Below, one piece after another: positions 9,850 through 42,855 of a stretch of 47,367 nt of DNA. Below the pieces are notes generated by a model. The model was not told the DNA's origin. It did not search any database and saw only the letters and a list, made by a program, of their open reading frames with translations. Source of the DNA: an uncultured Bacilli bacterium (GTDB lineage Bacteria > Bacillota_I > Bacilli_A > RF39 > UBA660); assembly GCA_944358695.1 (NCBI GenBank), contig CALVRM010000029.1:1-47367 (forward strand), given 5' to 3'. Within the stretch, counting starts at the first letter, position 1. Every line of letters begins with the position of its first letter. Position numbers and translations under genes: made by a program.

Positions 9850-9866
9850 TAAAATAGGTGAACAAT

Positions 9867-10238
9867 ATGAATAAAAAAGGATTTACTTTAGTAGAATTGT
9901 TAGGAGTAATCGTCATCTTAGGAATTATTGGAATGATTGCGGCACCAATTGTTAGTAATGTTATAAATAAAAGTATGGATGATACTAGTAATGCTCAAAT
10001 TGAAACGATTAAAAGAGCGGCAAAAGCTTGGGCTAATGCTAACGTTTATCAATTACCAGATTGTGGCAGTACTAATTGTGCTGAAACAAAAACTGTAACT
10101 GTCGCTGAGCTTAAAGCTGGTGGATATTTGGATGATAAAGATATTACCAATCCAAAAGATGATAGCAGTTATGAAAATGCGAAAGTAATAATTCAAAAAC
10201 AATCTGGAAAATATACATATACTTTTAAAGAAAAATAA
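9867..10238 (+). CDS. Type IV prepilin-like protein 1
   Basis: A 123-residue protein with the class III signal peptide MNKKGFTLVELLGVIVILG: short basic leader, cleavage before Phe, Glu at +5, then a hydrophobic helix. The mature part has two close cysteines (PDCGSTNCAE) that could form a disulfide. A GTG nine bases upstream is part of the AGGTGA ribosome binding site, so ATG 9867 is chosen. No pilus assembly ATPase, membrane protein or prepilin peptidase is nearby. It could be a ComG/Tad-type minor pilin or pseudopilin; it resembles the second copy at 39949. Confidence 0.8.
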   Translation: MNKKGFTLVELLGVIVILGIIGMIAAPIVSNVINKSMDDTSNAQIETIKRAAKAWANANVYQLPDCGSTNCAETKTVTVAELKAGGYLDDKDITNPKDDSSYENAKVIIQKQSGKYTYTFKEK

Positions 10239-21423: not shown

Positions 21424-22116
21424 ATGTATATATATGGTAAAAATGTAGCTGAGGAAGCTCTTTTAAAAAATGAGAAAATTAAACAGGCTTTTATTTATGA
21501 AAACTTTAATGATCGTGCGCTTCTTAATAAAATTTCTAGTAAAAATATTAAGATAAATTATGTGTCCAAATATGATTTAGATCGTTTGCAAAGTGGTAAT
21601 CACCAAGGTATTATCTTGGAGGTTCCTGATTATGACTATGCTTCTTTTGATGAAGTTTTAGAGGAAGAAATAATTGTCATGCTTGATCATTTGGAGGATC
21701 CGCATAATTTAGGGGCAATTATTAGAACTTGTGAAGCTGCGGGAATTAAAAGTTTAATTATTCCCAAAAATAGATCAGTTAGAGTAAATTCGACGGTTAT
21801 AAAGGTTAGTGTTGGCGCTATTGAAAATGTAAAGATCGCCATGGTCAATAATCTTGTTAATACGTTAAAAGAATTAAAAGATAAAGGTTACTGGGTGATT
21901 GGTACAGATATGCAAGGTACTGATTTTAAGAAAATTGATTACAGTGGAAAAATTGTTATTGTAATTGGTAGTGAAGGTCAAGGTTTAAGTAGATTAACTG
22001 AAGAAAATTGTGATTTTATAGCTTCTATTCCAATGAAAGGTCAAGTAAATAGCCTGAATGCTTCTGTGGCAGCAGCTTTAATTATTTATGAGGCGGTGAG
22101 AAATCGTGGAGTATAA
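21424..22116 (+). CDS. rlmB: 23S rRNA 2'-O-methyltransferase RlmB-type (TrmH family)
   Basis: A 230-residue SPOUT methylase. The short N-terminal domain MYIYGKNVAEEALLKNEKI and the three knot motifs LDHLEDPHNLGAIIRTCEAA, IVIGSEGQGLSRL and SIPMKGQVNSLNASVAAALI are clear. It methylates a 23S rRNA ribose (G2251 in E. coli numbering for RlmB proper). It begins immediately after the mrnC stop and overlaps sigH by 11 bases. Confidence 0.92.
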   Translation: MYIYGKNVAEEALLKNEKIKQAFIYENFNDRALLNKISSKNIKINYVSKYDLDRLQSGNHQGIILEVPDYDYASFDEVLEEEIIVMLDHLEDPHNLGAIIRTCEAAGIKSLIIPKNRSVRVNSTVIKVSVGAIENVKIAMVNNLVNTLKELKDKGYWVIGTDMQGTDFKKIDYSGKIVIVIGSEGQGLSRLTEENCDFIASIPMKGQVNSLNASVAAALIIYEAVRNRGV

Positions 22117-22729
22117 GGATTTTAATGATTTTGAGCTTGTAAGTTATGTAATGGAAAATGAGGAAGTTACTGACTTTTTGTTTGAAAAATACCGCCCCTT
22201 AATTAATAGTCTTGCTAAAAAACATTATAATGCTAATCAAAATATTGGACTTGATTATAATGATTTAGTGCAAGAAGGAATGGTTGGTTTTAGTACGGCT
22301 TTGAATACTTATAGTGAGCACAAAGATACTTTGTTTTTTACTTATGCTAAAAAGTGTATAGAGTCAAAAATGATTAGTATGATTGTTTCGGCTAATAGAT
22401 TGAAGCACCAGATTTTGAATAACTCATTATCAATGGAAGCGATTGATAGTGAAGAATTTAATAATAGCTTAGATAAAATCATTGGCGATAGATCTAGTAA
22501 TCCTGAGGATATTGCTATCGATAATGAAAATCTGTTAGAACTTATTGAGAGTTTAAATCAAGAGTTTACTGATTTTGAATCACAAGTCTTTGGAATGAAA
22601 AAAAGTGGCTTTAATTATCGTGAAATAGCTGAGGTACTGGATGTTGATCCTAAGAAAGTAGATAATGCTCTTCAAAGAATTAAAGCTAAAGTTCGGGCTT
22701 ATTTGAGAAAAAGAGTAAATGATAAATAG
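22106..22729 (+). CDS. sigH: RNA polymerase sigma-H (sigma-30) factor
   Basis: A 207-residue sigma-70-family factor. Region 2 shows NIGLDYNDLVQEGMVGFSTA, FFTYAKKCIESKMIS; region 4 shows LTDFESQVFGMKKSGFNYRE-type residues and IAEVLDVDPKKVDNALQRIK. Position between rlmB and secE is that of sigH in Bacillota, where the factor starts sporulation and competence. GTG 22106 follows GGTGAG by five bases. In related genomes yacP lies before it and rpmG after it; both are missing here. Confidence 0.88.
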   Translation: MEYKDFNDFELVSYVMENEEVTDFLFEKYRPLINSLAKKHYNANQNIGLDYNDLVQEGMVGFSTALNTYSEHKDTLFFTYAKKCIESKMISMIVSANRLKHQILNNSLSMEAIDSEEFNNSLDKIIGDRSSNPEDIAIDNENLLELIESLNQEFTDFESQVFGMKKSGFNYREIAEVLDVDPKKVDNALQRIKAKVRAYLRKRVNDK

Positions 22730-37454: not shown

Positions 37455-38528
37455 ATGAAAAGGACAGTATTAATCAATGGAAAAGCAGGGAGCTTAAAGA
37501 CAAAAGGAGTATTATTTAATGAAGTATCTAATATGATTAACCAAGGTGAAAATGTTTTAATGTTAGATACTAAAGAGGAGTATTATAAAAGATTTAGAAA
37601 AGAGTTTGCGGAAAATGGATACAACATAGTAGTATTAAATTTAAAAAATTTAAAACAAAGTAATGGTTACAATCCTTATACTTTACCACTTTATTATTAT
37701 ATTAATGATGAAAAGGATAAAGCCGTGGAAATGATTGAGACACTTGGTAAAGAGATTTTCTTAGATGGATATGAGGGAGATCCTTTTTGGCCTAATATGT
37801 CAATAGACTTGTTTACGGGACTTAGTTTATTATTATTTAAAGAGGCACCTCATAATAAGGTTAATTTTGGAAGCTTGAGCCTTTGTGCGGATTTAGTTAG
37901 TAATGATAAAGAAGAATTATTAACAAATTATATTAAGAATTTAAATGTGATGGATCCTATTTATGCTTGTGTATCAGGAACTTTATTCGCACCAGCTGAT
38001 ACAAGAGGAAGTATTATTTCAGTATTTCGTGAGAAAATTAAAAAGTATTGTTTAAGAGAAAATTTGATGGCTGTATTAAGTAATACTGATTTTGATATTG
38101 CGAATTTAGGCAAAGAAAAAACGGCAGTATTTATCATTGCCCGTGATGATAGTAAAAATATTAATGAAATTGCGAACTTATTTATCGAACAAATATATAG
38201 TTTAGTGATTTTTGAAGATATTAAATTTAATTTTGTTTTCGATAATATTGAGAAAACTTCATGTATTTTATGTTTAAAAGATATGTTAAACATGCTTAGT
38301 AAAAATATGAAAATTTACGTAGCTACTCGAAATAGGAAAGTATTAGAAGAAATGTATCATGATCCTAATTTATTTGTTAATATCGAAGAAGTTATTGAAA
38401 CTGAAGGGCAGCACATCGAAATTAGCGCTGATAATTTGAAAGAAGAACCAGCGGAGTATCCAACTTTGACAAGCAAGGCTGAGTATTTTGATATTGTTAG
38501 CTTTTTAAGAGAAAAAGATAATGTCTGA
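37455..38528 (+). CDS. VirD4/TraG-like ATPase with degenerate Walker motifs
   Basis: A 357-residue soluble protein similar to the motor domain of conjugative coupling proteins: LMLDTKEEYYKRFRKEFAEN, NIVVLNLKNLKQSNGYNPYT, DPFWPNMSIDLFTGLSLLLF and KTAVFIIARDDSKNINEIAN. The N-terminal membrane segments of true VirD4/TraG are absent. The nucleotide site is altered: GKAGSLKT (9-16) where G-x-x-G-x-G-K-T is expected, and VFDN (Asp263-Asn264) where family members have DE. ATP hydrolysis may be lost. No relaxase or other transfer gene is near. It lies in an operon with merR and overlaps a small ORF by eight bases. Role unknown. Confidence 0.7.
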   Translation: MKRTVLINGKAGSLKTKGVLFNEVSNMINQGENVLMLDTKEEYYKRFRKEFAENGYNIVVLNLKNLKQSNGYNPYTLPLYYYINDEKDKAVEMIETLGKEIFLDGYEGDPFWPNMSIDLFTGLSLLLFKEAPHNKVNFGSLSLCADLVSNDKEELLTNYIKNLNVMDPIYACVSGTLFAPADTRGSIISVFREKIKKYCLRENLMAVLSNTDFDIANLGKEKTAVFIIARDDSKNINEIANLFIEQIYSLVIFEDIKFNFVFDNIEKTSCILCLKDMLNMLSKNMKIYVATRNRKVLEEMYHDPNLFVNIEEVIETEGQHIEISADNLKEEPAEYPTLTSKAEYFDIVSFLREKDNV

Positions 38529-38860: not shown

Positions 38861-38905
38861 TATAAAACTGAAAAATGATGTGCTAAAGTAAAGAAGGGTG
38901 AGGAT

Positions 38906-39247
38906 ATGTTAGAAATAGATATACAGCCGCTTAGAGGAATACTGTTTGTAAGATTGAAAGGTAATTTAGATCGTCGCAATACGGCTAAACTTAACAGCGA
39001 AGTTGTTAAGTTTTTAAAACGCGTAGGGATTAAAAATATTGTGTTTAATATTAACGATTTAGAATACATGGATAGATATGGAGAAAAAGCTTTAATCAAT
39101 AGTTTCAAAATTTGTCAAGGTAATAAAGGACAAACTCTCATTTGCATTGATGATAATAAAAAGCGGCTAATAAAAAGTGATTATCTTTTTTCGAAAGTAA
39201 AGATAGTTAATGATGAATTAGCAGCGGTTAATTTAATCAATTCATAG
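38906..39247 (+). CDS. spoIIAA: SpoIIAA-like anti-sigma factor antagonist (STAS) lacking the phospho-serine
   Basis: A 113-residue STAS domain: LEIDIQPLRGILFVRLKGNL, VGIKNIVFNINDLEYMD, LICIDDNKKRLI. It aligns without gaps to B. subtilis SpoIIAA, including the MD-x-x-G loop, but the loop reads MDRYG: the Ser phosphorylated by SpoIIAB (Ser58 in B. subtilis) is Arg57, the next Ser is Tyr58. In B. subtilis SpoIIAA binds SpoIIAB to free sigma-F and is switched off by that phosphorylation. GGGTGAGG precedes ATG. sigF starts eight bases after its stop, with no spoIIAB between. Confidence 0.75.
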   Translation: MLEIDIQPLRGILFVRLKGNLDRRNTAKLNSEVVKFLKRVGIKNIVFNINDLEYMDRYGEKALINSFKICQGNKGQTLICIDDNKKRLIKSDYLFSKVKIVNDELAAVNLINS

Positions 39248-39255
39248 GAGGATAT

Positions 39256-39906
39256 ATGCCAGATATAACAGCACTAATTTTAGAAAATGAAGGGCTAATA
39301 TATAAAGTAGCTAATTATTTTAGTAGTTATGGCAGTATAGAAGATTTATATCAAGCGGGTTGCATAGGAATTATGAAAGGCGCAGCAAACTATGATCCAA
39401 ATAAAGGGACAAAATTTTCAACGTATATTTATTCGTATATTGTTGGCGAGATGAAGGCGCTGGTCAGAGAAGATAAACCGCTTAAGGTTAGTAGAGATGT
39501 TAGTAGACTTAGGGGATCAGTAGAAAAAGCAAGAGATGTATTATCACAAGTGCTGATGAGAGAGCCAACGGACGTAGAACTTAGTCAATATTTAGACATG
39601 GATGAATATTATTTGGCCGAAGTGTTGAACTCGGGTATTAAAACGCAAAGTATTGATGCGAATGTCGGTGATACGAATATGCTGATGCACGAAGTTATCA
39701 GTAGTCCTGATGTTAATATAGATGATTTACTTTATTTAAGAACTGAACTTGAAAATTTGGAAGAACCAGAGCGAACAATTATGATTAGTAGATATTATGA
39801 GGATATGACGCAGTCACAGATTGCGGCTAATCTTGGTACAACACAAGTTGATATTTCTAGACGTGAAGGGAAAGTGCTTTCAAAACTTAGATCAAGTGTT
39901 CATTGA
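39256..39906 (+). CDS. sigF: Sporulation sigma factor, SigF type
   Basis: A 216-residue sigma-70-family factor of the sigma-F/G branch. Region 2 has GSIEDLYQAGCIGIMKGAAN, YDPNKGTKFSTYIYSYIVGE; region 3 KVSRDVSRLRGSVEKARDVL; region 4 DMTQSQIAANLGTTQVDISR. It sits directly behind spoIIAA, the position of sigF once spoIIAB is removed, so SigF is favoured over SigG. It would drive forespore genes, probably including spoVA downstream (directly or through SigG). AGGAGG precedes ATG. Confidence 0.82.
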   Translation: MPDITALILENEGLIYKVANYFSSYGSIEDLYQAGCIGIMKGAANYDPNKGTKFSTYIYSYIVGEMKALVREDKPLKVSRDVSRLRGSVEKARDVLSQVLMREPTDVELSQYLDMDEYYLAEVLNSGIKTQSIDANVGDTNMLMHEVISSPDVNIDDLLYLRTELENLEEPERTIMISRYYEDMTQSQIAANLGTTQVDISRREGKVLSKLRSSVH

Positions 39907-39931: not shown

Positions 39932-39948
39932 TAAAATAGGTGAAGAAT

Positions 39949-40350
39949 ATGAAATATGGTGGTTTTACGTTAATTGAGCTAATTATGGTTATTACCTTAC
40001 TTGGAATTATTGCTTTAATTGCTGTACCAACAGTGAATACGATAATTAATGACTCGAAGGATAAAGCTTATAATGAACAAGTGAAATTAATTGAGGATTC
40101 AGCTAAAACATATATGTCACGTAATTCATTGGAATTACCTGCGCAAACGGTGAATGCGACTAAATGTGTTTCTGTAAGCAAATTACAAACAGAAGGTTTT
40201 TTAGCTAACAAATCGATTGAAAACCCAAAATATAGAAGTGGCAGCACGGATAGTGAAGAGAATTTCCAGTACTTTACGGGAGCTGTCAAAGTTACTTGGA
40301 ATGGTTCAAAATATAAATATGCATACACAAAAAGTGCAACCTGTGCTTAG
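39949..40350 (+). CDS. Type IV prepilin-like protein 2
   Basis: A 133-residue protein with the prepilin start MKYGGFTLIELIMVITLLG: cleavage before Phe, Glu at +5, hydrophobic helix. The mature part has two distant cysteines (TKCVSVSKL and the C-terminal ATCA). The GTG nine bases upstream belongs to AGGTGA, so ATG 39949 is used. It has its own promoter and terminator inside the sporulation cluster, and no pilus assembly genes nearby. It resembles pilin-like protein 1 in size, helix and control region. Confidence 0.8.
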   Translation: MKYGGFTLIELIMVITLLGIIALIAVPTVNTIINDSKDKAYNEQVKLIEDSAKTYMSRNSLELPAQTVNATKCVSVSKLQTEGFLANKSIENPKYRSGSTDSEENFQYFTGAVKVTWNGSKYKYAYTKSATCA

Positions 40351-40408: not shown

Positions 40409-41017
40409 ATGTATAATTTAATGACATTACCATATCCATACAATGGGCTTATACCAGATATTGATGAGGAAGTGGTGACAATTCATTATGATAAGCATCA
40501 TAGGGGTTATGTTAATAGGTTAAATGCAGCGTTAGAACAAGCCAATTATAGTGGTAATTATAGATTGGAAGAAATTCCAAGTCACATTGATGAATTTCCG
40601 TTACCACTACGCGGAGATATTTTATATAATGCTGGTGGAGTGTTAAATCATAATCTTTATTGGCTCAGTTTGAATTCTCAAAAAAATGCGCCAAGTGGGA
40701 ATCTTTTATATAAAATAAATGCCCAATATGGAAATTTTGAAAATTTTCGGAAAGATTTTATTCAAAGAGCTAAACAATTAGTGGGTTCGGGTTATACTTT
40801 TTTAGTTAGCAATAATCGTGGTGATTTAACGATTGTCAATTTAGTAAATCAAGAAACGCCGTTTTCCTATAATTTAATACCACTTTTTACAATTGATTTA
40901 TGGGAGCATGCTTATTATTTGCAATATAAAAATGATCGAGACAGTTACATAAATAATTTTTGGAATAAGGCTAATTTTGATTATGCTAGTAGGAAATATG
41001 ATGAAATAGTCGGTTAA
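40409..41017 (+). CDS. Iron/manganese superoxide dismutase
   Basis: A 202-residue Fe/Mn-type SOD that turns superoxide to peroxide and oxygen. All four metal ligands are visible: His in IHYDKHHRGYVNRLN, His in GGVLNHNLYWLSL, Asp and His in IDLWEHAYYLQYKNDR. The metal cannot be told from sequence. TTGGAGGAG precedes the ATG. Placed between sigF and spoVA, it may serve the spore, where SODs are known as coat-associated enzymes in some Bacillota; that is inference. Confidence 0.88.
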   Translation: MYNLMTLPYPYNGLIPDIDEEVVTIHYDKHHRGYVNRLNAALEQANYSGNYRLEEIPSHIDEFPLPLRGDILYNAGGVLNHNLYWLSLNSQKNAPSGNLLYKINAQYGNFENFRKDFIQRAKQLVGSGYTFLVSNNRGDLTIVNLVNQETPFSYNLIPLFTIDLWEHAYYLQYKNDRDSYINNFWNKANFDYASRKYDEIVG

Positions 41018-41077: not shown

Positions 41078-41518
41078 ATGGAAAAAAACAAATATAAAAG
41101 TATGGTTGATCGACATACACCAAAAGAAGATGTTTTATATAATGCAATTATTGCTTTTATAACTGGCGGAATTATGGGGATTATTGGACAAGGGCTGATT
41201 GATTTTTACTCTTATTATTTAACTATTCCTACTAAGGAAGCTACGGTTTGCATGTTAGTGACGTTAATATTTTTAAGTTGTTTATTTACTAGTTTAGGTT
41301 TCTTTGATAAGTGGGTGAATTTTGCCAAGTGTGGTTTAATTATTCCAATTACAGGTTTTGCGCATGCGACGATGAGTGCGGCCTTAGAATATCGTAAAGA
41401 AGGTTTAGTGACGGGAATTGGGGCGAACATGCTTAAACTTTCTGGAGCCGTGGTTATCTTTGGCGTTGTTAGTGCTTGGACTTTTAGTTTACTTAGAACG
41501 CTTTTGGGGGTGATATAG
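41078..41518 (+). CDS. spoVAC: Stage V sporulation protein AC
   Basis: A 146-residue membrane protein with four or so hydrophobic segments, part of the inner spore membrane channel that moves dipicolinic acid. B. subtilis SpoVAC is mechanosensitive. Recognisable stretches are YNAIIAFITGGIMGIIGQGL, GFFDKWVNFAKCGLIIPITG and FAHATMSAALEYRKEGLVTG. AGGAGGA precedes ATG; the stop abuts the spoVAD start. Confidence 0.93.
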   Translation: MEKNKYKSMVDRHTPKEDVLYNAIIAFITGGIMGIIGQGLIDFYSYYLTIPTKEATVCMLVTLIFLSCLFTSLGFFDKWVNFAKCGLIIPITGFAHATMSAALEYRKEGLVTGIGANMLKLSGAVVIFGVVSAWTFSLLRTLLGVI

Positions 41519-42508
41519 GTGACGTTTAAATATAATAATGTATATATTAATGAGACAGCTACGGTCACCGGACCCTATGAGGCTAAAGGACCCTTTAACA
41601 AATATTTTGACCGGAGTTATGACGACTTATATTTTAATGCACCTACTTGGGAGCAAGCGGAAAGTAAATCAATTAGTGATGCAGTGGATATTTTACTTAG
41701 TAAAGCGCGAATGACGCGTTTTGATATTGATATGTTTATATCAGGTGATTTATTAAATCAATTAACGGCTTCAAATTATACCGCAGCTAATATGCCATCG
41801 TCATTTATCGGAGTTTATGCAGCGTGCGCTACCAGTACTTTAGGATTGACTGTGGGTTCTAATCTAATTGAAAGTGGAATGGTTAATAATGTATTATGCG
41901 CAACTTCTTCACATAATAATGGCGCGGAAAAACAATTTAGATATCCAGTAGAATATGGAGGTCCAAAACCTAAGACAACAACTTTTACTGCCACAGGTAG
42001 TGCGGTGGCGTTGCTATCGTCTAAGAAAAGTAATATAAAAATCGAGAGCGCAACGGTGGGAGCTGTAATTGATTCAGAAATTAATGATGTTTTTCATATG
42101 GGAGCAGTGATGGCCCCAGCGGCGGCTGATACGATATATAAACATTTGATGGATACTGGGCGAAGTATTGATTATTATGATTTAGTATTAACCGGGGATT
42201 TAGGGATCTATGGTAAGGAAATTTTAAAAGAGTATATGCTTACGGAATATGGAATTAATTTAGAAAAATATAATGATACAGGAACGATGCTTTATAGTTT
42301 AGAAAGGCAACCAGTTTATGCCGGAGCTAGTGGTGCAGCCTGCGCACCTTTGGTAACATATGGATATATTTTAGAGCAAATGCGTAATAAAAAACTAAAA
42401 AAAGTTTTAGTGGTAGCTACGGGCGCTTTGATGAGTCAAACGATGGCTAATCAAAAGTTAACAATTCCAGCCATTGCTCATGCGATTAGTTTGGAGGCGG
42501 TTAGATGA
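41519..42508 (+). CDS. spoVAD: Stage V sporulation protein AD
   Basis: A 329-residue thiolase-fold protein that binds dipicolinic acid and helps its uptake into the spore. Visible family stretches are TVTGPYEAKGPFNKYFDRSY, FIGVYAACATSTLGLTVGSN, HNNGAEKQFRYPVEYGGPKP and TATGSAVALLS. It starts with GTG directly after the spoVAC stop and overlaps spoVAE by ATGA. Confidence 0.94.
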   Translation: MTFKYNNVYINETATVTGPYEAKGPFNKYFDRSYDDLYFNAPTWEQAESKSISDAVDILLSKARMTRFDIDMFISGDLLNQLTASNYTAANMPSSFIGVYAACATSTLGLTVGSNLIESGMVNNVLCATSSHNNGAEKQFRYPVEYGGPKPKTTTFTATGSAVALLSSKKSNIKIESATVGAVIDSEINDVFHMGAVMAPAAADTIYKHLMDTGRSIDYYDLVLTGDLGIYGKEILKEYMLTEYGINLEKYNDTGTMLYSLERQPVYAGASGAACAPLVTYGYILEQMRNKKLKKVLVVATGALMSQTMANQKLTIPAIAHAISLEAVR

Positions 42509-42855
42509 TTTATTTAAATGCGTTTTTGTTTGCTGGCTTGGTATGTATGATTGGACAGCTAATTTTAGATAATACAAAATTAACTCCAGGGCATATTACG
42601 GTGATATTTGTTGTATTAGGAGCGTTTTTAGATGTTTTTGATATTTATGATAAGTTAATTTTATGGGCTGGCGGTGGAGCACTAGTGCCAATTACAAGCT
42701 TTGGTCATATGTTAACTCATGGAGCAATAATGGGCTATCAAACAGATGGCTTTATGGGACTATTAGTTGGAACCTTTGATTTGACTTCGGCGGGTATTTG
42801 TGCCGCAATTATTCTAGCTTTTTATTTATCATTAGTATTTAAACCAAGAGATTAA
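42505..42855 (+). CDS. spoVAE: Stage V sporulation protein AE (SpoVAEB type)
   Basis: A 116-residue membrane protein, the third member of the minimal spoVAC-D-E set seen in many clostridia. Recognisable are YLNAFLFAGLVCMIGQLILD, TPGHITVIFVVLGAFLD and GALVPITSFGHMLTHGAIMG. It is coupled to spoVAD. spoVAA, AB and AF are absent here. Confidence 0.92.
   Translation: MIYLNAFLFAGLVCMIGQLILDNTKLTPGHITVIFVVLGAFLDVFDIYDKLILWAGGGALVPITSFGHMLTHGAIMGYQTDGFMGLLVGTFDLTSAGICAAIILAFYLSLVFKPRD

Follow-up and report, generated by a model that had tools for sequence, protein, structure and literature searches.

In Bacillus subtilis the spoIIA operon has the order spoIIAA-spoIIAB-sigF, and partner switching by SpoIIAB and SpoIIE is the textbook answer to the question of how sigma-F activity is limited to the forespore. 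Five sporulating relatives from the same class as the bacterium studied here keep SpoIIAA-SpoIIAB-SigF together with SpoIIE-type PP2C phosphatases. For RF39, an order of uncultured gut bacteria, it has already been published that spoIIAB and spoIIE are scarce or absent, and its members were predicted to form spores with altered regulation (Microb Genom 2024, PMC10868615). We analyzed a stretch of 47,367 nucleotides (contig CALVRM010000029.1, termed the window below) from an RF39 assembly of 1.15 Mb that is 94.5% complete. Candidatus Coprosoma intestinipullorum, placed in the order RF39, GTDB genus CAG-822 (PMC8035907), lies within the genus of the window, a locus of a same-genus genome (L024) having matched L042 at every stretch compared.

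The initial annotation of the window had stated that spoIIAA and sigF are separated by only eight bases, with no spoIIAB in between, and that the MDSSG loop of SpoIIAA reads MDRYG. Both observations were confirmed (Table 1); by alignment, Ser58 of the B. subtilis protein corresponds to Arg57 (39074-39076) and Ser59 to Tyr58. The ribosome-binding site of sigF overlaps the spoIIAA stop. The order-wide neighborhood follows the pattern dacF - spoIIAA - (spoIIAB) - sigF - spoVA. In the window, spoIIAA is not directly preceded by dacF, and sigF and the spoVA genes are in the expected position, with spoVAC-spoVAD-spoVAE downstream of sigF as in the ancestral spoIIA-spoVA order. The sigma factor is of the sigF type according to its top family matches, SigBFG and spore_sigF, which score below the curated cut-offs, and SigG is a distinct gene on contig C20 of the same genome. 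A prepilin-type (ComGC-like) gene lies directly 3′ of sigF (39940-40350) and an Fe/Mn superoxide dismutase gene between sigF and spoVAC (40409-41017). A prepilin-type gene was also present about 1 kb past the spoIIAA start in 29 of 135 RF39 loci, and the window contains a second one at 9858-10238. Upstream, a 357-aa fragment of a VirD4/CD1115-like conjugal-transfer ATPase (37455-38528) follows a MerR-type regulator; no other transfer genes were noticed near it.

Table 1. Position of the spoIIAA-sigF locus and of associated features in the window
Feature	Coordinates	Strand	Remarks
SigH-like sigma factor	22106..22729	+	TIGR02859/PRK08295 1e-30 to 1e-33, below cut-off
Putative Spo0A box TGTCGAA	38850..38856	+	Inside the order-wide motif CTAGTTTTGTCGAA
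Extended -10-like element TGTGCTAAAGT	38879..38889	+	Column consensus TGTGcTAaAtTA about 22 nt past the Spo0A box in 116 aligned promoters; probably sigma-A type
spoIIAA-like STAS gene without phosphosite	38906..39247	+	113 aa; PF01740 and TIGR02886 matches
Codons M-D-R-Y-G, former phosphorylation loop (B. subtilis MDSSG, Ser58)	39068..39082	+	Alignment of B. subtilis SpoIIAA with 135 RF39 sequences
8-base spoIIAA-sigF gap, expected site of spoIIAB	39248..39255	+	In class relatives spoIIAB-holding, 394-551 nt
sigF	39256..39906	+	216 aa; TIGR02980 1.4e-45, TIGR02885 7.2e-44
spoVAC	41078..41518	+	TIGR02838 8.6e-46
spoVAD	41519..42508	+	PF07451 1.3e-122
spoVAE	42505..42855	+	TIGR02839 4.3e-40, above cut-off

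A profile search of the assembly for SpoIIAB yielded only five weak spIIAB matches in frames of 347-612 aa. These were rejected as SpoIIAB since they carry HATPase_c histidine-kinase or GHKL-type ATPase domains; HisKA is additionally present in two of them and a response receiver in one. Neither SpoIIE nor a second SpoIIAA or other STAS protein was found in this genome. The genome-wide check for a SpoIIAB/RsbW-type kinase called for by the initial annotation thus revealed no SpoIIAB-type kinase, and the combination that was to speak against a rewired switch, a spoIIAB elsewhere together with a second, serine-bearing SpoIIAA, did not occur. The same holds true for the relatives: none of the 24 genus members and none of the 156 RF39 genomes gave a spIIAB match above the cut-off, and 97 RF39 genomes were free of matches at 1e-20, whereas the same profiles gave 157-186 bits for SpoIIAB in the five class relatives. 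The four matches at E<=1e-10 among the 156 genomes were frames of 346-416 aa, histidine-kinase-sized as in the genome of the window; the short frames of G007 and G018 that resemble spIIAB belonged to the HATPase_c family and did not recur across the order. PF07228 (PP2C, SpoIIE/RsbU type) was absent above the cut-off from the genus, and in the 156 RF39 genomes one strong and two marginal matches to a SpoIIE-type PP2C were obtained; a PP2C phosphatase reactivating the antagonist, as in partner switching, is present in no more than a few of them. With no SpoIIAB in the genome, the genus, or the sampled order, RF39 SpoIIAA is not expected to antagonize this anti-sigma factor. The suggestion that it might be always active is consequently hardly meaningful, since a protein that counteracts an anti-sigma factor is left with no target once that factor is missing.

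When loop and operon were compared in relatives, the arrangement of the window was seen in 23 of the 24 genus members, and spoIIAA was located directly upstream of sigF in all 135 non-redundant RF39 loci, at a distance of -5 to 77 nt from the sigF domain, compared with 403-551 nt in the class relatives, in which spoIIAB occupies the interval. This recurrence excludes chance, and the identical layout of the 135 loci excludes a frame or annotation error; mis-assembly of the metagenome-assembled genome is excluded as well, as the layout recurs also in DNA from a second collection. No gene that could replace spoIIAB was conserved between spoIIAA and sigF in these loci, whose frequent neighbors are dacF, spoVAC/AD/AE, and the prepilin gene. 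The proposal that the joint loss of the kinase and its target residue points to a rewired switch is supported and applies to RF39 as a whole, from which SpoIIE has gone too.

SpoIIAA was found in 113 of the 156 RF39 genomes, covering 63 of 78 genera. Among the 43 genomes without a match, sigF stands alone in 25, and in 2 the place of spoIIAA is taken by a strongly diverged STAS-like frame. The other 16 have no intact sigF; RpoD only, or nothing, was seen in about half of them. In five genomes without sigF (G039, G046, G083, G098, G128) the Spo0A frames were short or weakly scoring, consistent with a joint loss of sporulation. On the SigF tree the lone sigF state requires about 14 changes, at least 8 of them on well-supported branches. 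In the simplest history, SpoIIAB and SpoIIE disappeared once, at the root of RF39, and SpoIIAA was lost repeatedly thereafter. As SpoIIAA was dropped in about 8 to 14 lineages that kept sigF, it is dispensable and accessory at most. Some RF39 genomes contain second short STAS frames of 86-88 aa related to SpoIIAA (G133:C11, G151:C11, G168:C43), apparently a paralogue or decaying copy, and in G041:C44 and G050:C15 the STAS frames are broken by one TAA.

The SpoIIAA protein encoded in the window matched PF01740 (STAS) at 1.2e-9 and TIGR02886 (spore_II_AA) at 3.6e-12, the score of 46.2 bits lying below the equivalog cut-off of 114.75. Its AlphaFold model was confident (pLDDT 88.8) and had the SpoIIAA fold, the top PDB match being 1thn_B, SpoIIAA from the SpoIIAB complex (TM 0.87); profile matches to 1th8, 1tid, and 1auz were obtained at 1e-18 to 1e-20. 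The phosphorylatable serine of the D-S-S-G loop is missing in the window protein. In the 135 RF39 SpoIIAAs, position 58 is occupied by Ser in 13, Glu in 33, Asn in 21, Lys in 12, and Asp in 11 cases, with many other residues in the remainder, and the structural residues D57 and G60 are kept in 113 and 112 proteins, respectively. A phosphomimetic Asp or Glu, present in 44 of the 135 proteins, was rejected as a general explanation; the other 91 have Asn, Lys, Ser, Ile, Leu, Met, and further residues, so that the site looks unconstrained.

Residues E21, D23, G62, R67, S94, G95, and L96, which are conserved in the SpoIIAB-bearing relatives, are mostly lost in RF39. E21 and D23 are equivalent to or near contacts in the RsbV-RsbW and SpoIIAA-SpoIIAB structures (PMC7340262); the window protein has retained Asp at position 23 and lost Glu at position 21. 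Many RF39 SpoIIAAs, though not that of the window, have a shortened helix 3. G12, C81, and E106 are newly conserved and, together with R17 and N49, near-invariant. Pairwise omega values were mostly 0.05-0.3 (maximum, 0.40), near those of SigF, and RF39 SpoIIAA is under purifying selection. A SpoIIAA whose phosphorylation site has been erased must now do something else.

The initial annotation overlooked what appears, from the DNA, to be the more general control of this locus, namely Spo0A-dependent transcription. The sequence TGNCGAA, a putative Spo0A box, occurs in the 250 bp preceding spoIIAA in 127 of the 135 RF39 loci. Almost all copies are on the + strand, and their usual position relative to spoIIAA is -55 to -61. 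The number expected from Markov shuffles was 6.4, and flanking controls gave 5/124 and 5/132. Alignment of 116 RF39 promoters showed CTAGTTTTGTCGAA followed about 22 nt further on by the column consensus TGTGcTAaAtTA, which resembles an extended -10 element and would point to sigma-A. A putative Spo0A box was also located before 21 of the 25 lone sigF genes, and Spo0A itself is present in 147 of the 156 genomes. In three of the five class relatives the box occurs at a similar place (-56 to -71), suggesting that Spo0A control is ancestral and was simply retained.

Besides SigF and SpoVAC/AD/AE, the sporulation genes remaining in the genome of the window comprise those for Spo0A, a SigH-like factor, SpoIIR, SpoIIGA adjoining SigE, SigG on the same contig, and an uninterrupted SigK. 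RF39 metagenome-assembled genomes from cattle were scored as non-sporulating by machine learning in a study that lists spoIIAB among the genes present in all predicted spore-formers (PMC12536801). No cultured RF39 spore-former was found in the literature searched, and sporulation in this order is for this reason a prediction. Before spoIIR, no sigma-F promoter having the -10 pattern of B. subtilis was detected by a regular-expression scan. The ribosome-binding sites preceding sigG (-20.7 kcal/mol; L223:12999-13063 on C20) and spoIIR (-14.5 kcal/mol; L268) would be masked by inverted repeats, and a possible sigma-F/G-like promoter, GMATA-N-CATTATnA, overlaps the hairpin. Similar hairpins occur in several members of the genus. 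For sigG of B. subtilis, a hairpin that blocks read-through has been described (PMC5942855); the hairpin at spoIIR may be new. The sigE-sigG interval of the same genome also encodes a collagen-like protein with GPTGPT repeats (L223:9051-9929), possibly a BclA-like spore-surface protein.

The explanation that we consider somewhat probable as a whole is that RF39 gave up partner switching at its origin, leaving sigma-F gated by Spo0A and SpoIIAA as a kinase-independent accessory. The RF39 ancestor would have lost SpoIIAB, the kinase and anti-sigma factor, and the phosphatase SpoIIE and kept the sporulation sigma cascade. Phosphorylated Spo0A is assumed to bind the conserved box, some 55 bases upstream of spoIIAA, and to switch on the spoIIAA-sigF operon, so that sigma-F production would be gated mainly at the level of transcription; we infer that Spo0A is the main gate of sigma-F. 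SpoIIAA, neither phosphorylatable nor equipped with the SpoIIAB-binding face, would still be functional, be coproduced with sigma-F, and most likely touch sigma-F or the holoenzyme, or else feed back on Spo0A; which partner it has at present is a matter of hypothesis only. Several points weigh against this explanation. The box is ancestral and not a new invention, transcription alone leaves the forespore-only action of sigma-F unexplained, the function of a protein lost so often is dispensable, and sporulation of RF39 is only predicted, with one study scoring it as absent.

With regard to the role of SpoIIAA, we tentatively favor a direct action on sigma-F, with feedback on Spo0A ranked next. 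As a direct regulator replacing SpoIIAB, SpoIIAA would bind, hold, or stabilize sigma-F or the holoenzyme, a reading that we regard as possible but somewhat unlikely. It is supported by the unbroken adjacency to sigF and probable cotranscription in 135 loci, by purifying selection that persists without SpoIIAB, and by the new near-invariant residues G12 and E106. Co-variation of SpoIIAA was slightly higher with SigF than with SpoVAD, and 5 of the 12 SigF sites contrasting most between genomes with and without SpoIIAA lie within residues 74-101 (exploratory). However, these statistical signals are weak: in the mirror-tree analysis the distance co-variation beyond SpoVAD had a partial r of 0.18 versus 0.10 for the control, and the site contrast was barely above the null. 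Moreover, SpoIIAA was repeatedly dropped while sigF was kept, and we know of no STAS antagonist that binds a sigma factor directly. That RF39 SpoIIAA became a kinase-free direct regulator of sigma-F, with cell-type specificity achieved in the absence of SpoIIAB and SpoIIE, is rather unlikely in our estimation; if true, a two-component sigma/STAS switch would replace the four-component partner switch.

Alternatively, SpoIIAA might keep an older, SpoIIAB-independent role, such as the negative feedback on Spo0A activation attributed to the B. subtilis protein (Arabolaza et al. 2003, as cited in PMC8256260), which would limit the time during which the operon is on. The conserved box before the operon and the near-universal presence of Spo0A suggest that feedback of this kind would be of use after the loss of SpoIIAB, but no interface or partner was identified, and we judge this role unlikely. 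Equally doubtful is a slow decay, in which SpoIIAA is a relic held by the transcript or by a need for an intact frame in translational coupling. The repeated independent losses, several strongly diverged copies, the loss of the old interface, and the overlap of the spoIIAA stop with the sigF ribosome-binding site in the window agree with this view; yet omega values that are mostly far below 1 and resemble those of SigF, as well as residues that are near-invariant over about 60 genera, argue against it, and coupling would not conserve the amino acid sequence. Finally, a diverged GHKL or histidine kinase encoded elsewhere might escape profile searches and replace SpoIIAB, and several histidine kinases are present per RF39 genome, but this is very improbable given that no short SpoIIAB-like protein is conserved in genus or order, no conserved new gene lies beside the operon, and both the phosphorylatable serine and the SpoIIAB contact residues are gone.

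A retained, rewired SpoIIAA in RF39 appears to be new. The text of the RF39 survey (PMC10868615) is silent on the retained spoIIAA-sigF pair, the loss of phosphosite and interface, the selection on SpoIIAA, the lone sigF genes, and the Spo0A box, and in the literature searched we found no report of a selected SpoIIAA without phosphosite locked to sigF, of repeated lone sigF, or of the promoter element. Rules by which annotation pipelines require spoIIAB may misjudge genomes of this kind. SypA, RbaV, and HmpV, which consist of a STAS domain only (PMC8256260), are similar to RF39 SpoIIAA in that they regulate without, or beyond, a classical sigma partner switch, but they were described with cognate kinases or phosphatases, neither of which was found for the RF39 protein. 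In the RsbV/RsbW/SigB system the STAS antagonist belongs to the same family as SpoIIAA, but RsbV retains the phosphorylated serine and its kinase RsbW. The closest counterpart is the spoIIA operon of B. subtilis, with which the RF39 locus shares the orthologous position (dacF upstream in many loci, spoVAC/AD/AE downstream), the SpoIIAA fold, sigma-F, a Spo0A box before the operon, and SpoIIR, SpoIIGA, SigE, SigG, and SigK further downstream. It differs by the lack of SpoIIAB, SpoIIE, and the SpoIIAA phosphoserine, by the lost SpoIIAB-binding residues, and by the shortened helix 3 of many members. RF39 thus combines the full downstream cascade (SpoIIR to SpoIIGA to SigE, SigG, and SigK) with the absence of the SpoIIAB/SpoIIE switch, which raises as the most interesting question how sigma-F is confined to the forespore and makes testable whether cell-type specificity arises from Spo0A-driven transcription alone or from other control. 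RF39 SpoIIAA also clearly exemplifies a regulatory protein that has outlived its regulator, and its repeated later losses provide natural controls.
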